DNA of 64,000 bases from Hydrogenobacter hydrogenophilus (GTDB lineage Bacteria; Aquificota; Aquificia; Aquificales; Aquificaceae): the NCBI RefSeq assembly GCF_900215655.1, contig NZ_OBEN01000001.1, positions 1 through 64,000 on the forward strand, written 5' to 3'. The notes under the pieces were generated by a model. The model had not been told where the DNA came from. It made no database searches and saw only the letters and a program-made list of their open reading frames with translations. Made by a program: the position numbers and the translations under genes. Shown one piece after another: positions 34,700 to 46,175 of the stretch (the stretch's first letter is position 1; every line of letters begins with the position of its first letter).

Positions 34700-35706
34700 G
34701 AGTATGTGTTTATGGTGCTACAGGATACACAGGTATAGAACTCCTCAGATACCTGTCCCAACACCCTTATGTAAAGGTGGTTTCTGTTCTCTCAAGGACT
34801 TATGCAGGAAGATACCTTTCTGATGTACTGCCCTCTTTTTTTAATACTTACCTTTCAAAAATTCCCCTCACCGAAGAACCTCAAGAGGACTTTGATTTAG
34901 CTTTTCTGTGTCTTCCTCACGAAATATCCCTCAACCTGGTGCCTGAGCTAATAAAAAAGGGTAAAAAAGTTATAGATCTTTCTGGAGCTTATAGGATCAG
35001 TAAGAAAGAGCTTTATCCAGAGTTCTACGGATTTGAACATGTACACGAAGAGACTCTAAAGCTTGCGGTTTATGGCCTTCCAGAAGTTTTCAGAGACAGT
35101 ATAAAAAATGCAACGCTTGTAGCTAATCCTGGATGCTATCCTACCGCTACACTTTTGGGACTTTACCCATTTCTTAAAGAAGGGATAAACTTGGACAGAG
35201 TTATAGTGGACGCCATCTCTGGTGTGTCCGGAGCAGGAAGAAAGACTGCACAACACTTTCACTATCCTGAGATGGAGCAAAACATCATGGCATACTCTGT
35301 AGAGAAACACAGACATGTACCTGAAATGGAAGATGTTATAACAAAAATATCAGGAAAAAGTGTGAAGATAAGGTTTACTCCCAAAGTAATACCTGCATCA
35401 AGAGGCATGTTATGTAGCCTTTATGTACAGACTTCAGAGAAACGCCTGAAGGATTTATTTGAGGAAACTTATCTTTGTGAGAAGTTTGTAAAAATTATTC
35501 ACGAACCTCCAGCAACCAAACATGTAATAGGGACAAACCTATGCCTTATTTATCCCTACTACGAAGAAAGGACTCAAACCGCTGTTATCATAACTGTTAT
35601 TGACAACCTTGGTAAGGGTGCATCATCACAGGCTATCCAAAACATGAACATTATGCTTGGAATGGATGAAGCTACAAGCATAGAAAAGCCAGCGCTCTTT
35701 CCTTAA
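34684..35706 (+). CDS. argC: N-acetyl-gamma-glutamyl-phosphate reductase
   Basis: Third enzyme of arginine synthesis. 340 residues. The N-terminal NADP site is GATGYTGIELLRYLSQHP, the catalytic Cys is in VANPGCYPTATLLGLYP near 154, and the His is in EKHRHVPEME near 213. It acts downstream of ArgJ (this window) and ArgB (not seen). The stop shares TTAA with the convergent MglA-like gene. Confidence 0.96.
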   Translation: MEQALRVCVYGATGYTGIELLRYLSQHPYVKVVSVLSRTYAGRYLSDVLPSFFNTYLSKIPLTEEPQEDFDLAFLCLPHEISLNLVPELIKKGKKVIDLSGAYRISKKELYPEFYGFEHVHEETLKLAVYGLPEVFRDSIKNATLVANPGCYPTATLLGLYPFLKEGINLDRVIVDAISGVSGAGRKTAQHFHYPEMEQNIMAYSVEKHRHVPEMEDVITKISGKSVKIRFTPKVIPASRGMLCSLYVQTSEKRLKDLFEETYLCEKFVKIIHEPPATKHVIGTNLCLIYPYYEERTQTAVIITVIDNLGKGASSQAIQNMNIMLGMDEATSIEKPALFP

Positions 35707-36254
35707 TGGAGGAGTTCTTCCTTTATTATGTTCAAAAGGGTGAGTAGAGTGTTTTTAACGCTTTCCTTATCAATTGCAGAAACTGCAAGCACAGGAATAC
35801 CCTCCTCTTCATCTATGTCAAGGGCAGTCCTTACATCCTCTGGAGACCACGCATTAGGGAGGTCTTGTTTGTTCGCACCTACCACTATAGGTACTGGAAA
35901 TCTTGATTGGAAGAAGTTTATGATTCTTCTAGCTTCGTGGAAGGTAGAAGGGTCTGTGCTATCTACAAGAATGATAATTCCAAGAGCACCTTCACCCAGT
36001 ATCTCCCACATAAAGTCAAACCTTGACTGTCCAGGTGTGCCAAAAAGGTAAAGCTCATGCTCGTCATCTATCCTAATCTTCCCAAAGTCCATAGCTACCG
36101 TGGTGTAGTCTTTCACATTTCTCTCTCCTACCGCTTGCGTCCTTCTTTCTGTCTTCACAGTCTTTATCTCGCTGACAGTGTTTATGAACTGTGTTTTCCC
36201 TGCTGCAAAAGGTCCAGCAACAACTATCTTTATCTTCTTTATGGGCTTCATCAC
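35703..36254 (-). CDS. MglA/Arf-like small GTPase
   Basis: 183 residues. P-loop GPFAAGKTQFI near 14-24, switch-II-like GTPGQSRFDFMW near 72 and the base-specificity motif GANKQDLP near 130 are visible. It belongs to the prokaryotic Ras-like family that works with roadblock proteins to set polarity, motility or signalling state. DUF4388 and roadblock genes lie directly upstream in the same operon (4-bp overlap). Process controlled unknown. Confidence 0.9.
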   Translation of the reverse strand: MMKPIKKIKIVVAGPFAAGKTQFINTVSEIKTVKTERRTQAVGERNVKDYTTVAMDFGKIRIDDEHELYLFGTPGQSRFDFMWEILGEGALGIIILVDSTDPSTFHEARRIINFFQSRFPVPIVVGANKQDLPNAWSPEDVRTALDIDEEEGIPVLAVSAIDKESVKNTLLTLLNIIKEELLH

Positions 36255-36943
36255 AGCTCCTTTATCCTCTCTATGATCTTTGCAAGCAGTTCAAGGGTGA
36301 TAGAAGGTTTTTGCTTTTTCTCTCTCCTCTTTCTCTTTATAGCGCTTAGTGCCAAAAGTCCGTAAAGGGTTCTGTCCACGGTTAAGTTGTCCAGTCCAGA
36401 TTCGCGTCTTATGTCCATAACGCTCCTCTCTCCGTCAACGAGCATAAGCACCTTTTCCTCTTCCCTCGTTAGCTCAGCTTTGCGTATTTTTTCCATGTAG
36501 TCCTGAGACCTCTCAAAGGTCAAGAGCTCGTCTGATATTTTTCTCTCTACCTCCTCAGGTGTAAGTGTTCTTGATGCTATCATTATGAGTTTTTCTATGG
36601 GGTAATTAACGGGGATGTCCGAATTGTATCTTATAAATCCCGGTGTGAAGGAAAAAACGCCTTCTTTGCTACCGAGTTTGGTAATCAAAAAACGCTCTAT
36701 GGTTTTTGGTAGGTTTTCCTTAGAGATTCTGAGCTTATCTATGAGGTTATCAAAATCTCTTTCCGCATAAACTCTGAAGACCCTGTCAACAGGCCTTGCA
36801 AAAACTATTTCCCCTTCTTTAACATAGTAAGCTACAGTCATATCTGTCCATTCTACAAGCAGGATACCGCTTCTTTTGTCTCTTGCAAGTATCTGGAAGA
36901 TGTCCACAAAACTAAAAGTGCTTAAATCCCCTGTAAGTGCCAT
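36251..36943 (-). CDS. DUF4388 domain protein
   Basis: 230 residues. The N-terminal ~100 residues match the DUF4388 pattern: LTGDLSTFSFVDIFQILA, then SGILLVEW and YYVKEGEIVFARP. The C-terminal half looks like a winged-helix or dimerisation segment (EEKVLMLVDGERSVMDIRRESGL, then LTVDRTLYGLLALSAI) with a basic KRKRREKK stretch near 210. Such proteins occur with roadblock/MglA modules and are thought to serve as adaptors. It lies 10 bp after the roadblock gene. Confidence 0.85.
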   Translation of the reverse strand: MALTGDLSTFSFVDIFQILARDKRSGILLVEWTDMTVAYYVKEGEIVFARPVDRVFRVYAERDFDNLIDKLRISKENLPKTIERFLITKLGSKEGVFSFTPGFIRYNSDIPVNYPIEKLIMIASRTLTPEEVERKISDELLTFERSQDYMEKIRKAELTREEEKVLMLVDGERSVMDIRRESGLDNLTVDRTLYGLLALSAIKRKRREKKQKPSITLELLAKIIERIKEL

Positions 36944-36953
36944 AATTCCCCTT

Positions 36954-37307
36954 TTATATGAGTGCCTTCAGTCTCTCTTGTGCCTTTTTTATCTCCATTA
37001 GCAAAAGTCCAAGTTTAGCATTGTTATCTGCAAGAACTACCATAACCGCATCATGACCTACACCCGTAAGTATAACATATCCATTTTCCCCCTTTATGGT
37101 TATCTGCTCAAGCCCCCCCTTTGCAAGCTCTTCCGATACTCTCTCGCCAAGAGACAGAATAGCCGCGCTCATAGCTGCTATCCTGTCTTCTTCGAGTCCA
37201 GGCTTTAACACAGAAGATATGGGAAGACCGTCTGCGGACACAAGCGAAGCACCTTCCAAACCAGTGTTTTTTATAAGTTCCTGAAGTACCTGCATGTACT
37301 TGTCCAT
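36954..37307 (-). CDS. Roadblock/LC7-domain protein (MglB-like)
   Basis: 117 residues: GLEGASLVSADGLPISSVL, MSAAILSLGERVSEELAKG, ITIKGENGYVILTGVG and AVMVVLADNNAKLGLLLMEI form the single roadblock fold. In the family such proteins act as GTPase-activating or scaffolding partners of MglA-like GTPases. It is the first gene of the three-gene operon, with GGAGGG before its ATG and TATACT further upstream. Confidence 0.92.
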   Translation of the reverse strand: MDKYMQVLQELIKNTGLEGASLVSADGLPISSVLKPGLEEDRIAAMSAAILSLGERVSEELAKGGLEQITIKGENGYVILTGVGHDAVMVVLADNNAKLGLLLMEIKKAQERLKALI

Positions 37308-40322: not shown

Positions 40323-41747
40323 CTACCTTACCCTCTTAAAAACGTTATAAGTTTCATCGCTGTAGACCAGTATGTATCCCTTTAGAAAGCCCATCTTGGA
40401 GGTGGGAAAGCGATCTGAGATGATGTTTTGTGAGACTTTATTTACCAAGATACAGTCCGCAAAGGCAATAGGTGTGGAGATCACAGAGTAGTACTCATAC
40501 ATATAAGGAAGATAAAACTTCTTGGGGTTTTGGGAAAAGACTACTACAGGAAAGTCTGTTTTATCATCCAAGAGTGTCTTTTCACATCCTTGGTCTTTTA
40601 ACACTTTTGCGACATTTATATATTCTTTAATATTTTCCTTTACTCTTCCGGTGAGCAGAAATTTCACAAAGTTCTTTTCGTTCTCTTCCCTTGAATACAA
40701 AGGCAGTACCCAGCTTGCAAGAAAGGACACTATAAAGGCAACAGCCAGTGCCTTAGACCCTCTTATATTGAGACTTACCGCAAAGGTTATCGCAAAGGCT
40801 AAGAAAAGAACAGAGTAGTAATAAGAAGGGAAAAAGTAAGATAAGTAAATGGAAAAGAGCATAAGAACTATGGGAGACAGGTAAAGAAGGTACACTGGGA
40901 AAAGATACAACATCCTGTACTTTCTTAGTTTAAAAAGAACTACTACATACGGCAGTATTAGGGGTAGCAAATAAAAAAGCTGTAAAGCACTATACTTTAG
41001 GCTTTCAAAGATGCTACTTTTTGCAAGAAGGACATCAGTGTCAAGTGCCCTTCCCTTAAAGAAGGAGTATGGACTCTTTATAAAGGTTAGGGGGTCTCCT
41101 GTGAAGACCCAGTTTAGGTAGAGCCATATGAAAACGAAGAATACAATGGGTGTTAGCTTGACCATGGTTAGAGCAAGGGTGTAGTCCTTTCCTGCCCGTT
41201 TTGTGGTTAAAAATATAAAAAGCACAAACAAGGGTATTAGGAACACGCTCCTAAAGTCAAGGAAGAAGCAAAGACCCAGCAGAAAACCACCTACAAAAAG
41301 ATAGATGGAGTAGCCCATTTCCATGTGGAGTATAAGAAACATTACAGACAGGGTAAGTAGTATGTAAAAGGAAAGCACTTCAAACCTGTATACCGCCAAA
41401 AAAATAACCAGTGGATTGAGCAGTAAAGACCCAACTATAAAGTAAACGGGACTGAGACACCTTTTTAACAGGAATGAAAAAAACAGCGTGAGTATAAGAG
41501 CGGACGCAAAGGGGGATGCCATAAGATAGTCGCTTACAAACCAAAAGGGCAGAAAGGCAAGAGGTGGGTACACAAGACCTATGTTTTCAAGGCGTGGTGG
41601 TTCTCCTTCCTTTGCAAGTAGCACCTTCTCTGCATAAAAGAGCACATTAAGATGCACATAGCCAGCTTGGTAAAGGGTATGGGAAGCTGTATAGAACAAA
41701 AAGATCAGGCATAGAAACAGAAGGTAGAGCACCAAAAGGGGACGCAT
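40323..41747 (-). CDS. Polytopic membrane protein, probable GT-C-like glycosyltransferase
   Basis: 474 residues with about ten membrane spans and a short C-terminal soluble tail from near 370 containing LLDDKTDFPVVVFSQNP. The first loop carries EGEPPRLENIGLVYPPLAFLPFW, a pattern like the acidic first periplasmic loop of GT-C enzymes (DUF2029/ArnT-like), though the catalytic Asp is not certain. It ends the BcsB-like/OM/GT2 operon, with a 1-base TGATG overlap with the GT2 gene. Role in polysaccharide transfer or modification is inferred from context. Confidence 0.7.
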   Translation of the reverse strand: MRPLLVLYLLFLCLIFLFYTASHTLYQAGYVHLNVLFYAEKVLLAKEGEPPRLENIGLVYPPLAFLPFWFVSDYLMASPFASALILTLFFSFLLKRCLSPVYFIVGSLLLNPLVIFLAVYRFEVLSFYILLTLSVMFLILHMEMGYSIYLFVGGFLLGLCFFLDFRSVFLIPLFVLFIFLTTKRAGKDYTLALTMVKLTPIVFFVFIWLYLNWVFTGDPLTFIKSPYSFFKGRALDTDVLLAKSSIFESLKYSALQLFYLLPLILPYVVVLFKLRKYRMLYLFPVYLLYLSPIVLMLFSIYLSYFFPSYYYSVLFLAFAITFAVSLNIRGSKALAVAFIVSFLASWVLPLYSREENEKNFVKFLLTGRVKENIKEYINVAKVLKDQGCEKTLLDDKTDFPVVVFSQNPKKFYLPYMYEYYSVISTPIAFADCILVNKVSQNIISDRFPTSKMGFLKGYILVYSDETYNVFKRVR

Positions 41748-43627
41748 CAGACCGCTCCAGCAATAGGTGGTTTGTACTTGGTAATGCCGTGCTGTGTTTT
41801 CTGCCAGTAGAAGGGTTTAGTGAATAGCTCATATAGAGCCTTGTAAGAGGCTATTGAGTGGAGCATCCAATAGATGGGGTTTAGGAAGGCATAAGGAAGT
41901 AGGTTGTAGTAGCGTCTTTTGAACACCGCTATCATGTTTAGGTATATGCCCATAAAGTTCCCAAAGAGAAGGTTAAAGAGGGAAAGATAGAGTAGCCAGG
42001 GTGGAAAGAAAATGTCCAGCGCTTTGGTCTGGGTTATTAACCAGAAAATAAAGATGATCCACATAATTGGGTTTATTAGAAAAGTAAAGGGAGTTCCACC
42101 TATGAGAAGATGAAAAGCTAAAAAGCCCCTTAGCCCTACATTTTTGTAGAGTTTTTTGGAGTTTCTGGCATGCACCAGCCAGGTCTGCATGTAGCCCTTT
42201 ATCCATCTTGACCTCTGCCTTATCCAGTTTCTAACCTTTGCGTTTGCCTCTTCGTAGGTAGTGGAGTTTATAACACCCACCTTGTAGCCCTTTCCAAATG
42301 CCCTTACACCAAGGTCTGCGTCCTCTGTAGTGTTGAAAGGATCCCAAGCACCTATTTCTCTGAGCTTTTCCACATCAAAGTGGTTGCTTGTACCACCAAG
42401 AGGTATGGGAAGCTTAAGGTTGTATAACCCTGGCAGTAGGTAATCAAACCAATAGGAGTACTCAAGGGTAAACATCTTGGTCAGGAAGTTCTCATCTTTA
42501 TTGAAGTAGTTGAGTGCTGCCTGAAAGCATATGTACTGCCCACCACCCTTCTCAAAGGCTATTACCGCCTTTTTAAGTTGGTCTGGTTCTGGTATATCTT
42601 CCGCATCGTATATGGTCAAGTACTTTCCACGTGCAAAGAAAAGCCCATAATTACAAGCTTTTGGTTTTGTTTTTGGAAGGCTTGGAGGGACTATGATAAA
42701 TCTCCAGTTTGCCGGAGGTTTTTGAGCCTTTGCAGCCTCAAGGGTCTCCTTGTCATCTTCCTCTAAGAGGAGTATCACGTCAAGCTTGTTTTGGGGATAA
42801 TCCATCTTCTTTAGGCTATTTATGAGTATGCCTATCACTTCAGGCTCTTTATAAACGGGCACAAGCACCGTATAAACGGGCAGGTCTTTCTCATCAAGGT
42901 TCTTGACCTCGTCCTCTGTTATAAACTGTTGCATTTCCGATTTTGCACCTGCCAAGCTCGCCAAAAGTTTAAAGAGTATGGAGATCACATAAAAGACCTG
43001 AATTAACGCTATAAGAGTTATCACATAAGAAACAGCATCGTAGTATATCCACAACAGAGAACCGTAAAGAAAAAGACCCATAAAGAAAACCTGTCCCTTA
43101 GAAAACACCTGAGATGCGGAGTACTCGGGACTTAGGTAAAAAAGTCCATGCACTGCGCGATCCACAAAGTGGTCTTTAAAATAGGTCTCAAGGGTTTTTA
43201 TCAAGTCAAGGTCTGTTATGATTATCTCCTTGATGGGCTCATCTCCAAAGTGCTTGCGCACAAACTCATGGAACTTCTCGCTGTTTGGGTAAGAGGTAAG
43301 AAGTAGCACACCCTCTTGGGTCTGCCTTGCAGGGATAACCTCACAGCGAGCAAGCTCCTCTGGATCAAATCTCATCAAAAAGTTCTTATCCACCAGGCTT
43401 TTTATCTTCTCAAGGTCATCTATAAACTCAAGACCTAAGTGTTCTGCGAGTGTTCTAAAGAAGTCTATGCGCCTTATGTATCCCAAAGAAGCTAGTATCC
43501 AGCCAAGCCTACCGTCGTACTTCTTCTGATAATCAAGGGCTTCTTCTAACTGTTGCTGGGTTATTAGACCTTTTTTGAGGAGCACCTCACCTATGCGCTC
43601 CTTAGAAGTTCCACCAGACGCCCACAT
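41747..43627 (-). CDS. Processive GT2 polysaccharide synthase with N-terminal MshEN/T2SSE_N domain
   Basis: About 626 residues. The N-terminal ~165 residues form a T2SSE_N/MshEN module: RIGEVLLKKGLITQQQL and RLGWILASLGYIRRIDF are the paired c-di-GMP-binding half motifs, followed by the second lobe (RCEVIPARQTQEGVLLLTSY). Two membrane spans follow near 185-240. The GT2 catalytic domain has YTVLVPVYKEPEV, IYDAEDIPEPDQ (D-x-D-like), NTTEDADLG and the processivity motif QRSRW. More spans lie at the C-terminus. There is no PilZ domain. ATG at 43627 was chosen because GTAGGGG precedes it. It is inferred to be a c-di-GMP-gated exopolysaccharide synthase. Confidence 0.88.
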   Translation of the reverse strand: MWASGGTSKERIGEVLLKKGLITQQQLEEALDYQKKYDGRLGWILASLGYIRRIDFFRTLAEHLGLEFIDDLEKIKSLVDKNFLMRFDPEELARCEVIPARQTQEGVLLLTSYPNSEKFHEFVRKHFGDEPIKEIIITDLDLIKTLETYFKDHFVDRAVHGLFYLSPEYSASQVFSKGQVFFMGLFLYGSLLWIYYDAVSYVITLIALIQVFYVISILFKLLASLAGAKSEMQQFITEDEVKNLDEKDLPVYTVLVPVYKEPEVIGILINSLKKMDYPQNKLDVILLLEEDDKETLEAAKAQKPPANWRFIIVPPSLPKTKPKACNYGLFFARGKYLTIYDAEDIPEPDQLKKAVIAFEKGGGQYICFQAALNYFNKDENFLTKMFTLEYSYWFDYLLPGLYNLKLPIPLGGTSNHFDVEKLREIGAWDPFNTTEDADLGVRAFGKGYKVGVINSTTYEEANAKVRNWIRQRSRWIKGYMQTWLVHARNSKKLYKNVGLRGFLAFHLLIGGTPFTFLINPIMWIIFIFWLITQTKALDIFFPPWLLYLSLFNLLFGNFMGIYLNMIAVFKRRYYNLLPYAFLNPIYWMLHSIASYKALYELFTKPFYWQKTQHGITKYKPPIAGAV

Positions 43628-44378
43628 TAAAGCCCCTACCCGCTCCTGTGTTCCTACCATAAAAAACGTGCTGATAGGTAGCTACCAAAGATATGTTTCC
43701 CAAAATTAGCCTTGGACCTATATAAACCTGAGCCAGCTTGTAGTCAGGCTCCAAAAGTACATTCCTGCCTACTTGTTTTCTTTTGCCGTTTCCAAGGCCT
43801 ATCTGTAGGTCTAAGGTGGTTATCAGCTGTAAGTTTTTGTAAAGATTTAGTCCGCCAGTCGCATAATACCTCACCTGAGAAGAAGGATAGCCAAAGTAGT
43901 ATCGGTAGCCCAAACCCGTATCCAAAAAGCCCAAGTTTCCAGAAATGCCATAAAGAATCCCACCCTCCAAACCCAACCTTCCATAACCCAACCGAGGGTC
44001 TTTGTGTATGGAGTATCCAGTGGGTACTATGGCACTGCCATATGCAGAAAAAGAGCTATTTGGGAAGGCTCTTATCTGTCTTATAAAGCCTACTTCCAAG
44101 TCGGAAAAGCCAGAGGTCTCTTTTGCGCACTTTAGCCTGTCGTAGGGTAGCTTAAAGGTAAGGGTTGTCTTGTTGGTAAGACCATACTCTCCGTAGAGTT
44201 GTATCTCCTGCTTTTCAAAGGTGCAACCAATAGGCTTTTTGTTGCCATTCCTGTCATAGTAATCCTTTGCACTATAGTAGTAGAAGAAGGGAGCAATAAA
44301 AACCTCTCCTTCCTTTCTTACCCAAGCGGAAGAAAAGCCAACAACTGGTATGAGCACTAAGTAAAAAAGGTATCTCAT
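43602..44378 (-). CDS. Outer-membrane beta-barrel protein of the polysaccharide operon
   Basis: 258 residues. A signal peptide (LFYLVLIPVVGFSSAW) is followed by alternating amphipathic strands rich in aromatic and Gly residues (for example GRLGLEGGILYGIS, DTGLGYRYYFGY, VRYYATGGLNLYKNL), ending in GFNVGVWWNF with a C-terminal aromatic Phe as in outer-membrane barrels. Roughly 10-12 strands. Unlike BcsC it has no TPR region. Sandwiched between the BcsB-like and GT2 genes (4-bp and 26-bp overlaps), it may be the export pore. Confidence 0.78.
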   Translation of the reverse strand: MRYLFYLVLIPVVGFSSAWVRKEGEVFIAPFFYYYSAKDYYDRNGNKKPIGCTFEKQEIQLYGEYGLTNKTTLTFKLPYDRLKCAKETSGFSDLEVGFIRQIRAFPNSSFSAYGSAIVPTGYSIHKDPRLGYGRLGLEGGILYGISGNLGFLDTGLGYRYYFGYPSSQVRYYATGGLNLYKNLQLITTLDLQIGLGNGKRKQVGRNVLLEPDYKLAQVYIGPRLILGNISLVATYQHVFYGRNTGAGRGFNVGVWWNF

Positions 44379-46156
44379 GTGATCTGTCTCCTTGTGAGCT
44401 TTCTATAAGTATAACTAAGAAATAGAGCTATGGGTACTGCAAGAAGTAGCATTATCCAAATCTTATACTTATTCCAATAGTAGCTAATGTCCTTCTCCTG
44501 AGGATAGCGCACTCTCATTTTTTCCCCAACTTGGTAGGAGCCTAAAAAGGTTTCAGTAGCAACCGCTACATTACCAGCCAGTCCAAGCATGTCTGTGTAG
44601 GAGTAGTTTAATACATTTTCTATCCCTTCTGGACTCAGAAAGTAAGAGAATACCAAAGCTGGTCTTTTATCCACACTGCTCAACATAAGCACTCCAAAGC
44701 TCTCAGTGGGCATGCTTGCAAATAGCACCTTATTTGTGAGAGGGTTAATAATCTGAAACTCACCCTTGCTTAGGTCTATGGGCATACCCTTAGTGTCTTG
44801 GGGCTTTTTGAAAAGTATCAAAAAGTCGTACATAGAGAGGTCTTTTGGGTTTATGTCCAAAACTTTTATGTTCTTGTTATATGTGGCTAAGTCCGTTATC
44901 AGCTTAGTGGCTACTCTATAAAAGGCTGGATCTTCAACCACCAGTGCTACATAACCGCTCAGCGCATTGAAAAACTCAGAGATGCTTTTTGGGTCTTTTT
45001 CCAGACTGTTCCAGTATAGATAGGAAGTATCAAAGACAGTCAGGACAGTATGGGTTATAGCACCAAAGCAGTTATCAGAAGATGTAAAATTAACCAAGTT
45101 TATGCTTATATAATTCATGCCATAATGAAGCTGGTCTGTGGGAATCTCTATATTAAAGCTGTGCCTACCACCATCTTCAAGCTTATAAACATTTAGCACA
45201 AAACCATTAACATAAACCCTTAGCTCCATCTTATCTTTTTGGTGGGGTGGAGAGTTTGCTATGTCCAATTTTAAATACAACCTATCTGGTATGCCACCTA
45301 TGCGAGAAAGGTCCAGCGGTATAGTGTAGCTAATATTGCCAGAACCCTCCACAGTGGCAGTCCTTATGCCCAGCTCACGCAGAGAGATCTCGTTTCTCTG
45401 TATCTTTGCTTCCCTATCTACACCAGTTAAAGCCTGATCCCGAGAAAACAGTAAAGGGTAAAAAATATCTTCCTCAAAAACCAAGTAGGTTTCCTTAGGG
45501 ACATAAAGTCCATCTGGCTTTAGACTTATCTTTTCATCAGTAGAAAGCTTTATTAGTTTGCAATCACTGGGAGTTTGACCAGCTGTGTATTTAACATTAC
45601 AGGGTATAGGGTTTTGCTTGCACATCTGGTATATAAAGGGCAAAAGGTAGTGTGAGTCTATGCAGTAGTTATTGTCATAGTCCCTGAGAAACTCTCTTAT
45701 ATTCCTGTAGTTTTGGTAATAAAAGGATACGTAGCTGTCCTTGCGCACCACCATGTATATCCTGTCAGAAAAAACATCTTCGCATATGTTGTTAGAAATG
45801 CGCAAATTTCCAATGATGCTTATCTTCACAAAGTCCCTGTTTTTGTTTCTGCGCACTGGGATCACCACATCCGCAGGAACAGACATCAAACTATAACTTA
45901 CATAAGGCACATCATCTACAAGTATCATCACACTACTATCTTTCCTGAGATATTCTGGTAGAGAGAGTCTAAGATGCACCCGTCCTTCTATAAGTTGAGG
46001 AAGTGTGGGTATGTAAAAGTCATACTTGGGATTTACTCCCTTTATCACAAGGTCCTCTGAGAGCAAGTTCATCTGTTCAAAAGTAAAGACTGACATTCTC
46101 TCCTTAGAGAAGGCAAGGCTAAGAAATAGAAGGACCAATAGCCAAGTTCTTAGCAT
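44375..46156 (-). CDS. BcsB-like periplasmic polysaccharide co-synthase subunit
   Basis: 593 residues. Signal peptide (LLVLLFLSLAFS), a large periplasmic region of repeated jelly-roll/flavodoxin-like modules, and one C-terminal membrane anchor (IWIMLLLAVPIALFLSY near 568) with a basic tail. BcsB-like landmarks: INPLTNKVLFASMP, FVLNVYKLEDGGRHSFNIEIP and NNICEDVFSDRIYMVV. In cellulose synthase, BcsB anchors and guides the nascent glucan through the periplasm. First gene of the four-gene cassette. Its own -10 lies 7 nt upstream, so it can be transcribed apart from hisG. Confidence 0.83.
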   Translation of the reverse strand: MLRTWLLVLLFLSLAFSKERMSVFTFEQMNLLSEDLVIKGVNPKYDFYIPTLPQLIEGRVHLRLSLPEYLRKDSSVMILVDDVPYVSYSLMSVPADVVIPVRRNKNRDFVKISIIGNLRISNNICEDVFSDRIYMVVRKDSYVSFYYQNYRNIREFLRDYDNNYCIDSHYLLPFIYQMCKQNPIPCNVKYTAGQTPSDCKLIKLSTDEKISLKPDGLYVPKETYLVFEEDIFYPLLFSRDQALTGVDREAKIQRNEISLRELGIRTATVEGSGNISYTIPLDLSRIGGIPDRLYLKLDIANSPPHQKDKMELRVYVNGFVLNVYKLEDGGRHSFNIEIPTDQLHYGMNYISINLVNFTSSDNCFGAITHTVLTVFDTSYLYWNSLEKDPKSISEFFNALSGYVALVVEDPAFYRVATKLITDLATYNKNIKVLDINPKDLSMYDFLILFKKPQDTKGMPIDLSKGEFQIINPLTNKVLFASMPTESFGVLMLSSVDKRPALVFSYFLSPEGIENVLNYSYTDMLGLAGNVAVATETFLGSYQVGEKMRVRYPQEKDISYYWNKYKIWIMLLLAVPIALFLSYTYRKLTRRQIT

Positions 46157-46163
46157 GATGTAG

Positions 46164-46169
46164 ATTATA
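46164..46169 (-). promoter_or_regulatory. -10 box of the BcsB-like operon
   Basis: Minus-strand TATAAT 7 nt before the BcsB-like ATG, in the 19-bp gap after hisG. It suggests a separate leaderless transcript for the polysaccharide genes. Confidence 0.55.
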
Positions 46170-46175
46170 TTAAAT

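Follow-up and report, generated by a model that had tools for sequence, protein, structure and literature searches.

Here we describe a four-gene cassette on the minus strand at positions 40323–46156 of contig 1 of the 1.6-Mb genome of Hydrogenobacter hydrogenophilus (Aquificaceae), within a stretch of 64,000 nucleotides that was analysed as a whole (hereafter referred to as the window). We put at roughly three in four the probability that this cassette is a cyclic di-GMP (c-di-GMP)-gated, synthase-dependent exopolysaccharide system, Bcs-like with exchanged parts. A first-pass annotation of the DNA had reported four overlapping genes in one operon-like row, and all four ORFs were recovered at these coordinates, the ends of neighbours overlapping. 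In the order of the genes, followed within the synthase by its N-terminal elements, the features are:

44375..46156, minus strand: BcsB-like periplasmic co-subunit, 593 aa (Pfam BcsB PF03170 and hydropathy)
43602..44378, minus strand: predicted 12-stranded outer-membrane barrel, candidate exporter, 258 aa, no TPR (AlphaFold and fold comparison)
41747..43660, minus strand: MshEN-GT2 polysaccharide synthase, likely start 43627 (Pfam GT2, AlphaFold, BcsA fold)
43178..43603, minus strand: MshEN domain in the synthase, residues 20–161 (NF053729 and fold match to 5htl)
43439–43597, minus strand: c-di-GMP motif in the synthase, residues 22–74 (NF053729)
40323..41747, minus strand: polytopic GT-C/PMT-like membrane protein, 474 aa (profile-profile match and hydropathy)

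The GT2 ORF is present as listed (43660–41747), but translation probably begins at its residue 12, the ATG at 43627; a close relative starts there, and a purine-rich stretch lies upstream. The BcsB-like gene is preceded on the same strand by hisG (46784–46176) at a distance of 19 bases (46157–46175), so the four cassette genes and hisG may be transcribed together. A TATAAT-like hexamer is found in the same interval, immediately 5' of the BcsB start codon. Three kilobases from the cassette, a Ras-like small GTPase, a DUF4388 protein and a Roadblock/LC7 protein are encoded in a row (35703–37307, minus strand) that resembles an MglA/MglB polarity module. The closest relative among the loci fetched is in a Hydrogenobacter genome, where the synthase is 97% identical.

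The synthase matches GT2 families in Pfam with E-values down to 1.5e-20, and its AlphaFold model has a pLDDT of 89.9. In this model, the catalytic and membrane half (residues 204–632) superposes on BcsA with a Z-score of 31. The DAED, TED and QRSRW motifs, which the first-pass annotation had picked out (the first as DAEDIP), are invariant or nearly so in alignments of 97 and 42 relative sequences. The features of a processive GT2 polysaccharide synthase are thus all found: catalytic acids, TED, QxxRW and membrane channel helices. No PilZ domain was detected by Pfam in the cassette proteins or elsewhere in the host genome, which agrees with the first-pass annotation and extends it genome-wide.

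By motif and predicted fold, the N terminus of the synthase is a complete MshEN domain. The curated c-di-GMP motif model NF053729 (NCBIfam) scores 59.2 bits over residues 22–73, against a cut-off of 38, and is matched in 41 of 42 relatives; the Pfam MshEN model scores 17.1 bits, below its own cut-off. Residues 20–161 of the AlphaFold model match MshE bound to c-di-GMP (5htl_B) over both subdomains (Z 19.4, r.m.s.d. 2.1, 139/139 residues). Both RLG-type half-motifs described at first pass are present, but neither is perfect: at its key positions the first reads R22, I23, G24, L38, L42 and Q45, with Ile23 in place of Leu, and the second reads R51, L52, G53, F67, L71 and H74, with Phe67 in place of Leu and His74 in place of Gln. 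Both glycines and both arginines are retained. MshEN binds c-di-GMP (PMC5013675), and we infer that the domain does so here and gates the putative synthase activity. The complete two-part domain with its 53-residue motif is common to the synthase and to MshE, although in MshE and PilB-type proteins it sits on an ATPase (PMC5013675) and here on a membrane glycosyltransferase.

The BcsB-like assignment made at first pass holds: the protein matches PF03170 above cut-off (E = 1.7e-10) and carries a single predicted C-terminal transmembrane anchor at residues ~566–584 (hydropathy). It is the sole BcsB of the host genome, and phmmer found no match to it among PDB chains. The 258-residue, TPR-less outer-membrane barrel of the first-pass annotation is likewise upheld, by a confident AlphaFold model (pLDDT 90.3) with 12 strands and no TPR. 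Its closest folds are the COG4313 channel (4rl8, Z 24.1), FapF (5o65, Z 21.9) and the oligosaccharide porins KdgM and NanC (Z ~18). The 12-stranded barrel fold is common to the cassette protein, the COG4313 channel and FapF, but membership of a sequence family with these was not detectable, and FapF is an amyloid exporter, the cargo of which is a polypeptide. In the window, the barrel sequence has no Pfam or NCBIfam match and its profile found none among PDB sequences; among 31 relatives, one matches PF13557, at 0.012.

The distribution of the barrel follows the presence of an outer membrane. It lies close to the GT2 gene in 25 loci, all of them in diderm phyla except one from an unclassified bacterium. 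In genome-wide searches with the barrel alignment, it was present in 10/10 outer-membrane-bearing genomes, including Mucilaginibacter and Sporomusaceae, where it was not found beside the cassette, and in none of eight genomes of Chloroflexota, Thermomicrobiota, Actinomycetota and Thermus, a genus with an atypical outer envelope. Envelope types were assigned to the phyla as they are generally described, and phylogeny is confounded with them; with this proviso, the co-occurrence is what an outer-membrane exporter of this system should display. In Hydrogenobaculum (locus L036, 1–5105), a PelB-like TPR-barrel protein and two unnamed genes are encoded just upstream of the cassette, and the PelB-like protein reads as a second exopolysaccharide exporter beside it.

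The fourth protein, described at first pass as a polytopic membrane protein, is indeed one (474 aa, about 11 predicted transmembrane segments and a C-terminal soluble domain by hydropathy) and can be named more exactly as GT-C/PMT-like. Its sequence matched nothing in Pfam or NCBIfam, and its profile nothing credible in the PDB. Profile-profile comparison, the only method that placed it, aligned it with PMT_2 proteins of relatives at 96.4% probability over 391 columns (hhalign, E = 1.4e-9 for a single comparison), whereas three membrane-protein controls scored near 0. Three of 46 relatives match Pfam PMT_2 weakly. In the first periplasmic loop, where a catalytic acidic residue would be expected, no Asp or Glu is invariant; about 30 of the 46 retain Glu40 and Glu54. 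On this sequence evidence, the protein appears to be a divergent relative of GT-C/PMT-type (GT39/GT83-like) enzymes, a superfamily whose usual donors are polyprenyl-phosphate sugars.

Taken as one machine, the GT2 synthase would draw on a nucleotide donor to build a sugar polymer on the cytoplasmic side of the inner membrane, would thread the growing chain through its own membrane helices and would be gated by c-di-GMP through MshEN. The BcsB-like protein, held by its one C-terminal helix, would take up the chain in the periplasm. On the periplasmic side, the GT-C/PMT-like protein would probably modify the chain, for instance by attaching a substituent drawn from a polyprenyl-phosphate sugar, which is the weakest step of the scheme, and the 12-stranded barrel would release the chain through the outer membrane. 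The first-pass reading, an MshEN-GT2 with a BcsB-like guide and a TPR-less exporter, fared well: every prediction of it that could be computed came out in its favour.

A scan of GTDB genomes gave at least 576 loci encoding the fusion, which rules out the idea that the combination is rare. Among the best 80 of these, which were read, 45 are fully flanked; BcsB lies within 2 kb of GT2 in 36 of the 45, as the first-pass annotation had proposed to check, a GT-C-like gene is nearby in 37, and both are found in 33. Because the profiles that detected the neighbour families were trained on these loci, the resulting E-values lack the independence that the genomic adjacency has. BcsB, GT2 and the GT-C-like gene cluster in more than ten phyla, with loci from Aquificota, Nitrospinota, Thermodesulfobacteriota, Myxococcota, Pseudomonadota, Chloroflexota, Deinococcota and Bacteroidota and further ones from Gemmatimonadota, Synergistota, Bacillota, Cyanobacteriota, Chlamydiota, Thermotogota, Actinomycetota and others. 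The actinobacterial loci keep GT2, with BcsB not detected.

Within the order of the host, the synthase was found in 18 of 101 sampled genomes, once as two ORFs and once as fragments on two contigs. At locus L016 (1065–2994) of the relative G013, whose genome is a single contig, the synthase is split into an MshEN-only ORF of 145 aa and a GT2 ORF of 494 aa, ~13 bases apart, a break between sensor and enzyme that reflects either gene fission or a frameshift. In an Aquificaceae genome that lacks the gene, short remnants of the synthase C terminus with a stop codon are found (G044:C32:131552-131744), a trace of synthase loss.

If the MshEN motif serves c-di-GMP, its fate should follow that of c-di-GMP signalling, the bacterial "settle down" signal. 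Twelve key positions were scored against a permissive set of allowed residues, to which the Phe67 and His74 of the window belong, and a score of at least 9 counted as intact; the distribution has two pronounced peaks, at 4 and at 10–12. The motif is conserved in most lineages of homologues but has decayed in Bacteroidota/Kryptonia, Cyanobacteriota, a group of Anaerolineae (Chloroflexota), Persephonella and one Parachlamydiales genome, so not every family member would be gated by c-di-GMP. All 40 intact-motif genomes encode GGDEF proteins (32/32 and 8/8 in two batches), against 11 of 33 decayed-motif genomes (11/18 and 0/15), the other 22 having none; Fisher's test gave p = 3e-4 for the first batch, uncorrected for relatedness. 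About four changes of label are needed on the tree, so few independent events lie behind the association. There are exceptions: strong GGDEF genes accompany a decayed motif in the Cyanobacteria, in Persephonella and in the Parachlamydiales genome, and in Thermoflexus genomes the motif is intact but all GGDEF matches are weak. GGDEF proteins number four in the host; the GGDEF/GGEEF signature is intact in three of them, and one is fused to EAL, which answers the earlier call to check the genome for diguanylate cyclases.

These observations bear directly on the alternative that MshEN is a structural or protein-docking module that does not bind c-di-GMP, the synthase being constitutive or regulated transcriptionally. 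Precedent exists in XpsE, whose MshEN no longer binds (PMC5013675); relatives with a decayed motif retain the whole cassette, and the second half-motif here has two non-consensus residues. However, NF053729 is passed by a wide margin, both glycines and both arginines are kept, and decay is concentrated in lineages that are poor in GGDEF genes or devoid of them, as expected if the motif serves c-di-GMP; we therefore regard a non-binding module as unlikely. Most of the decayed-motif loci in Bacteroidota have a gene for a histidine kinase immediately upstream of BcsB, as if the kinase had become a replacement regulator. In Mucilaginibacter and relatives (L073–L113), whose genomes lack GGDEF and whose MshEN motif has decayed, over 20 loci have a histidine-kinase gene of ~448 aa directly upstream of BcsB and about 2 kb upstream of GT2.

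A further question is what the synthase makes. An ordinary Bcs-type cellulose synthase, with MshEN for PilZ, a short barrel for BcsC and cellulose as product, would account for the BcsB homology, for BcsA as the closest fold and for a weak match to the CelA model in 42 of 42 relatives. But the CelA model scores 38.9 bits against a cut-off of 699, which argues against CelA orthology and not against cellulose as product; the mannosyltransferase PcManGT (Z 27.9) and hyaluronan synthase (Z 26) are almost as close in predicted structure as BcsA, bcs includes no PMT-like GT-C partner, and where a hydrolase was found, in four cassettes, it belongs to GH113 rather than GH8. Given the CelA score and the lack of PilZ and BcsC, we set this explanation aside as quite improbable. 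A polyprenyl-phosphate-sugar enzyme as partner would also suit glycosylation of a lipid or surface protein, in which GT2 makes a lipid-linked sugar, GT-C transfers it and the BcsB-like protein and barrel are accessory; we consider this very unlikely, as QxxRW and a BcsA-like transmembrane region are hallmarks of processive synthases and BcsB has no known role in such pathways.

The four GH113 genes are in two Nitrospinota and two gammaproteobacterial loci. GH113 includes beta-mannanases and a large clade of unknown substrate that adjoins GT2 genes, for which a biofilm-building role has been proposed (PMC9032380); this weakly suggests a beta-mannan-type chain. It stays a hint because GH113 occurs in the cassettes of only these four loci and is absent from the host genome, and a beta-mannan product for the cassette in general was not adopted. 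Three of the four GH113 cassettes also carry CotH-kinase and TLC-type transporter genes. These extended cassettes (L039 4628–9932, L041 5016–10257 and L111 13301–19258), with GH113 glycosidase, CotH-kinase protein and TLC ATP/ADP-type transporter, are common to Nitrospinota and a gammaproteobacterium.

Our preferred reading, a c-di-GMP-gated exopolysaccharide system, places the cassette beside Bcs (BcsA-BcsB-BcsC-BcsZ), with which it shares a processive GT2 fold with QxxRW, a BcsB partner, a domain of c-di-GMP receptor type on the synthase and an outer-membrane barrel. By contrast, the receptor-type domain is a C-terminal PilZ in Bcs and an N-terminal MshEN here, the exporter is TPR-bearing BcsC in Bcs and a 12-stranded, TPR-less protein of 258 aa here, and the cassette has an additional GT-C/PMT-like gene and no GH8. 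Bacillus YdaJKLMN also combines a GT2 and a BcsB-like protein with c-di-GMP control and a non-cellulose polymer. In that system and in Listeria Pss, a stand-alone, degenerate GGDEF protein takes the place of MshEN as c-di-GMP receptor, and there is no outer membrane. The GT2 and BcsB-like pair is common to both and to the cassette, in which the candidate receptor is the MshEN fused to the synthase. Pss of Listeria has the same pair under c-di-GMP control and a non-cellulose polymer (PMC4125290). The NfrA–NfrB system, the N4 glycan receptor system of E. coli, resembles the cassette in that a GT2 is fused to MshEN and c-di-GMP-activated polymerisation with outer-membrane export has been proposed (PMC8669469, PMC8669472). 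However, MshEN is C-terminal in NfrB, NfrA is a larger and different outer-membrane protein than the cassette barrel, and the E. coli nfr operon has no BcsB, although a BcsB homologue is reported in an Achromobacter nfr cluster (PMC8669472). The NfrB model scores 21.6 bits on the cassette synthase against a cut-off of 1170, below the level of orthology. We therefore file the cassette as a system that works like Bcs, yet is neither Bcs (no PilZ, no TPR exporter) nor Nfr (domain order, no NfrB orthology).

The suggestion that this combination may be undescribed stands in part: a search of non-subscription literature found no paper on an N-terminal MshEN-GT2 with BcsB, a GT-C protein and a 12-stranded barrel as a system, but the fusion is not rare, and MshEN-glycosyltransferase fusions have been mentioned in general terms (PMC5013675). 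More tentatively, the cassette could be a widespread, old c-di-GMP-controlled system with its own parts and a beta-mannan-type or otherwise non-cellulosic polymer, its sensor lost and replaced by a histidine kinase where c-di-GMP signalling was given up; this is possible, on balance doubtful.

The known c-di-GMP-controlled polymer machines (Bcs, Pga, Pel, alginate and Nfr) have been described mostly from Proteobacteria. The cassette, which is found in phyla as far apart as Aquificota, Bacteroidota and Deinococcota, would follow their logic with other parts, and would provide many phyla with a defined output for c-di-GMP that does not involve PilZ. It could also be relevant to those GH113 enzymes beside GT2 genes whose substrate is unknown (PMC9032380). 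It would add an unusually small exporter, and would offer a natural experiment in the loss of a second-messenger sensor from an enzyme.
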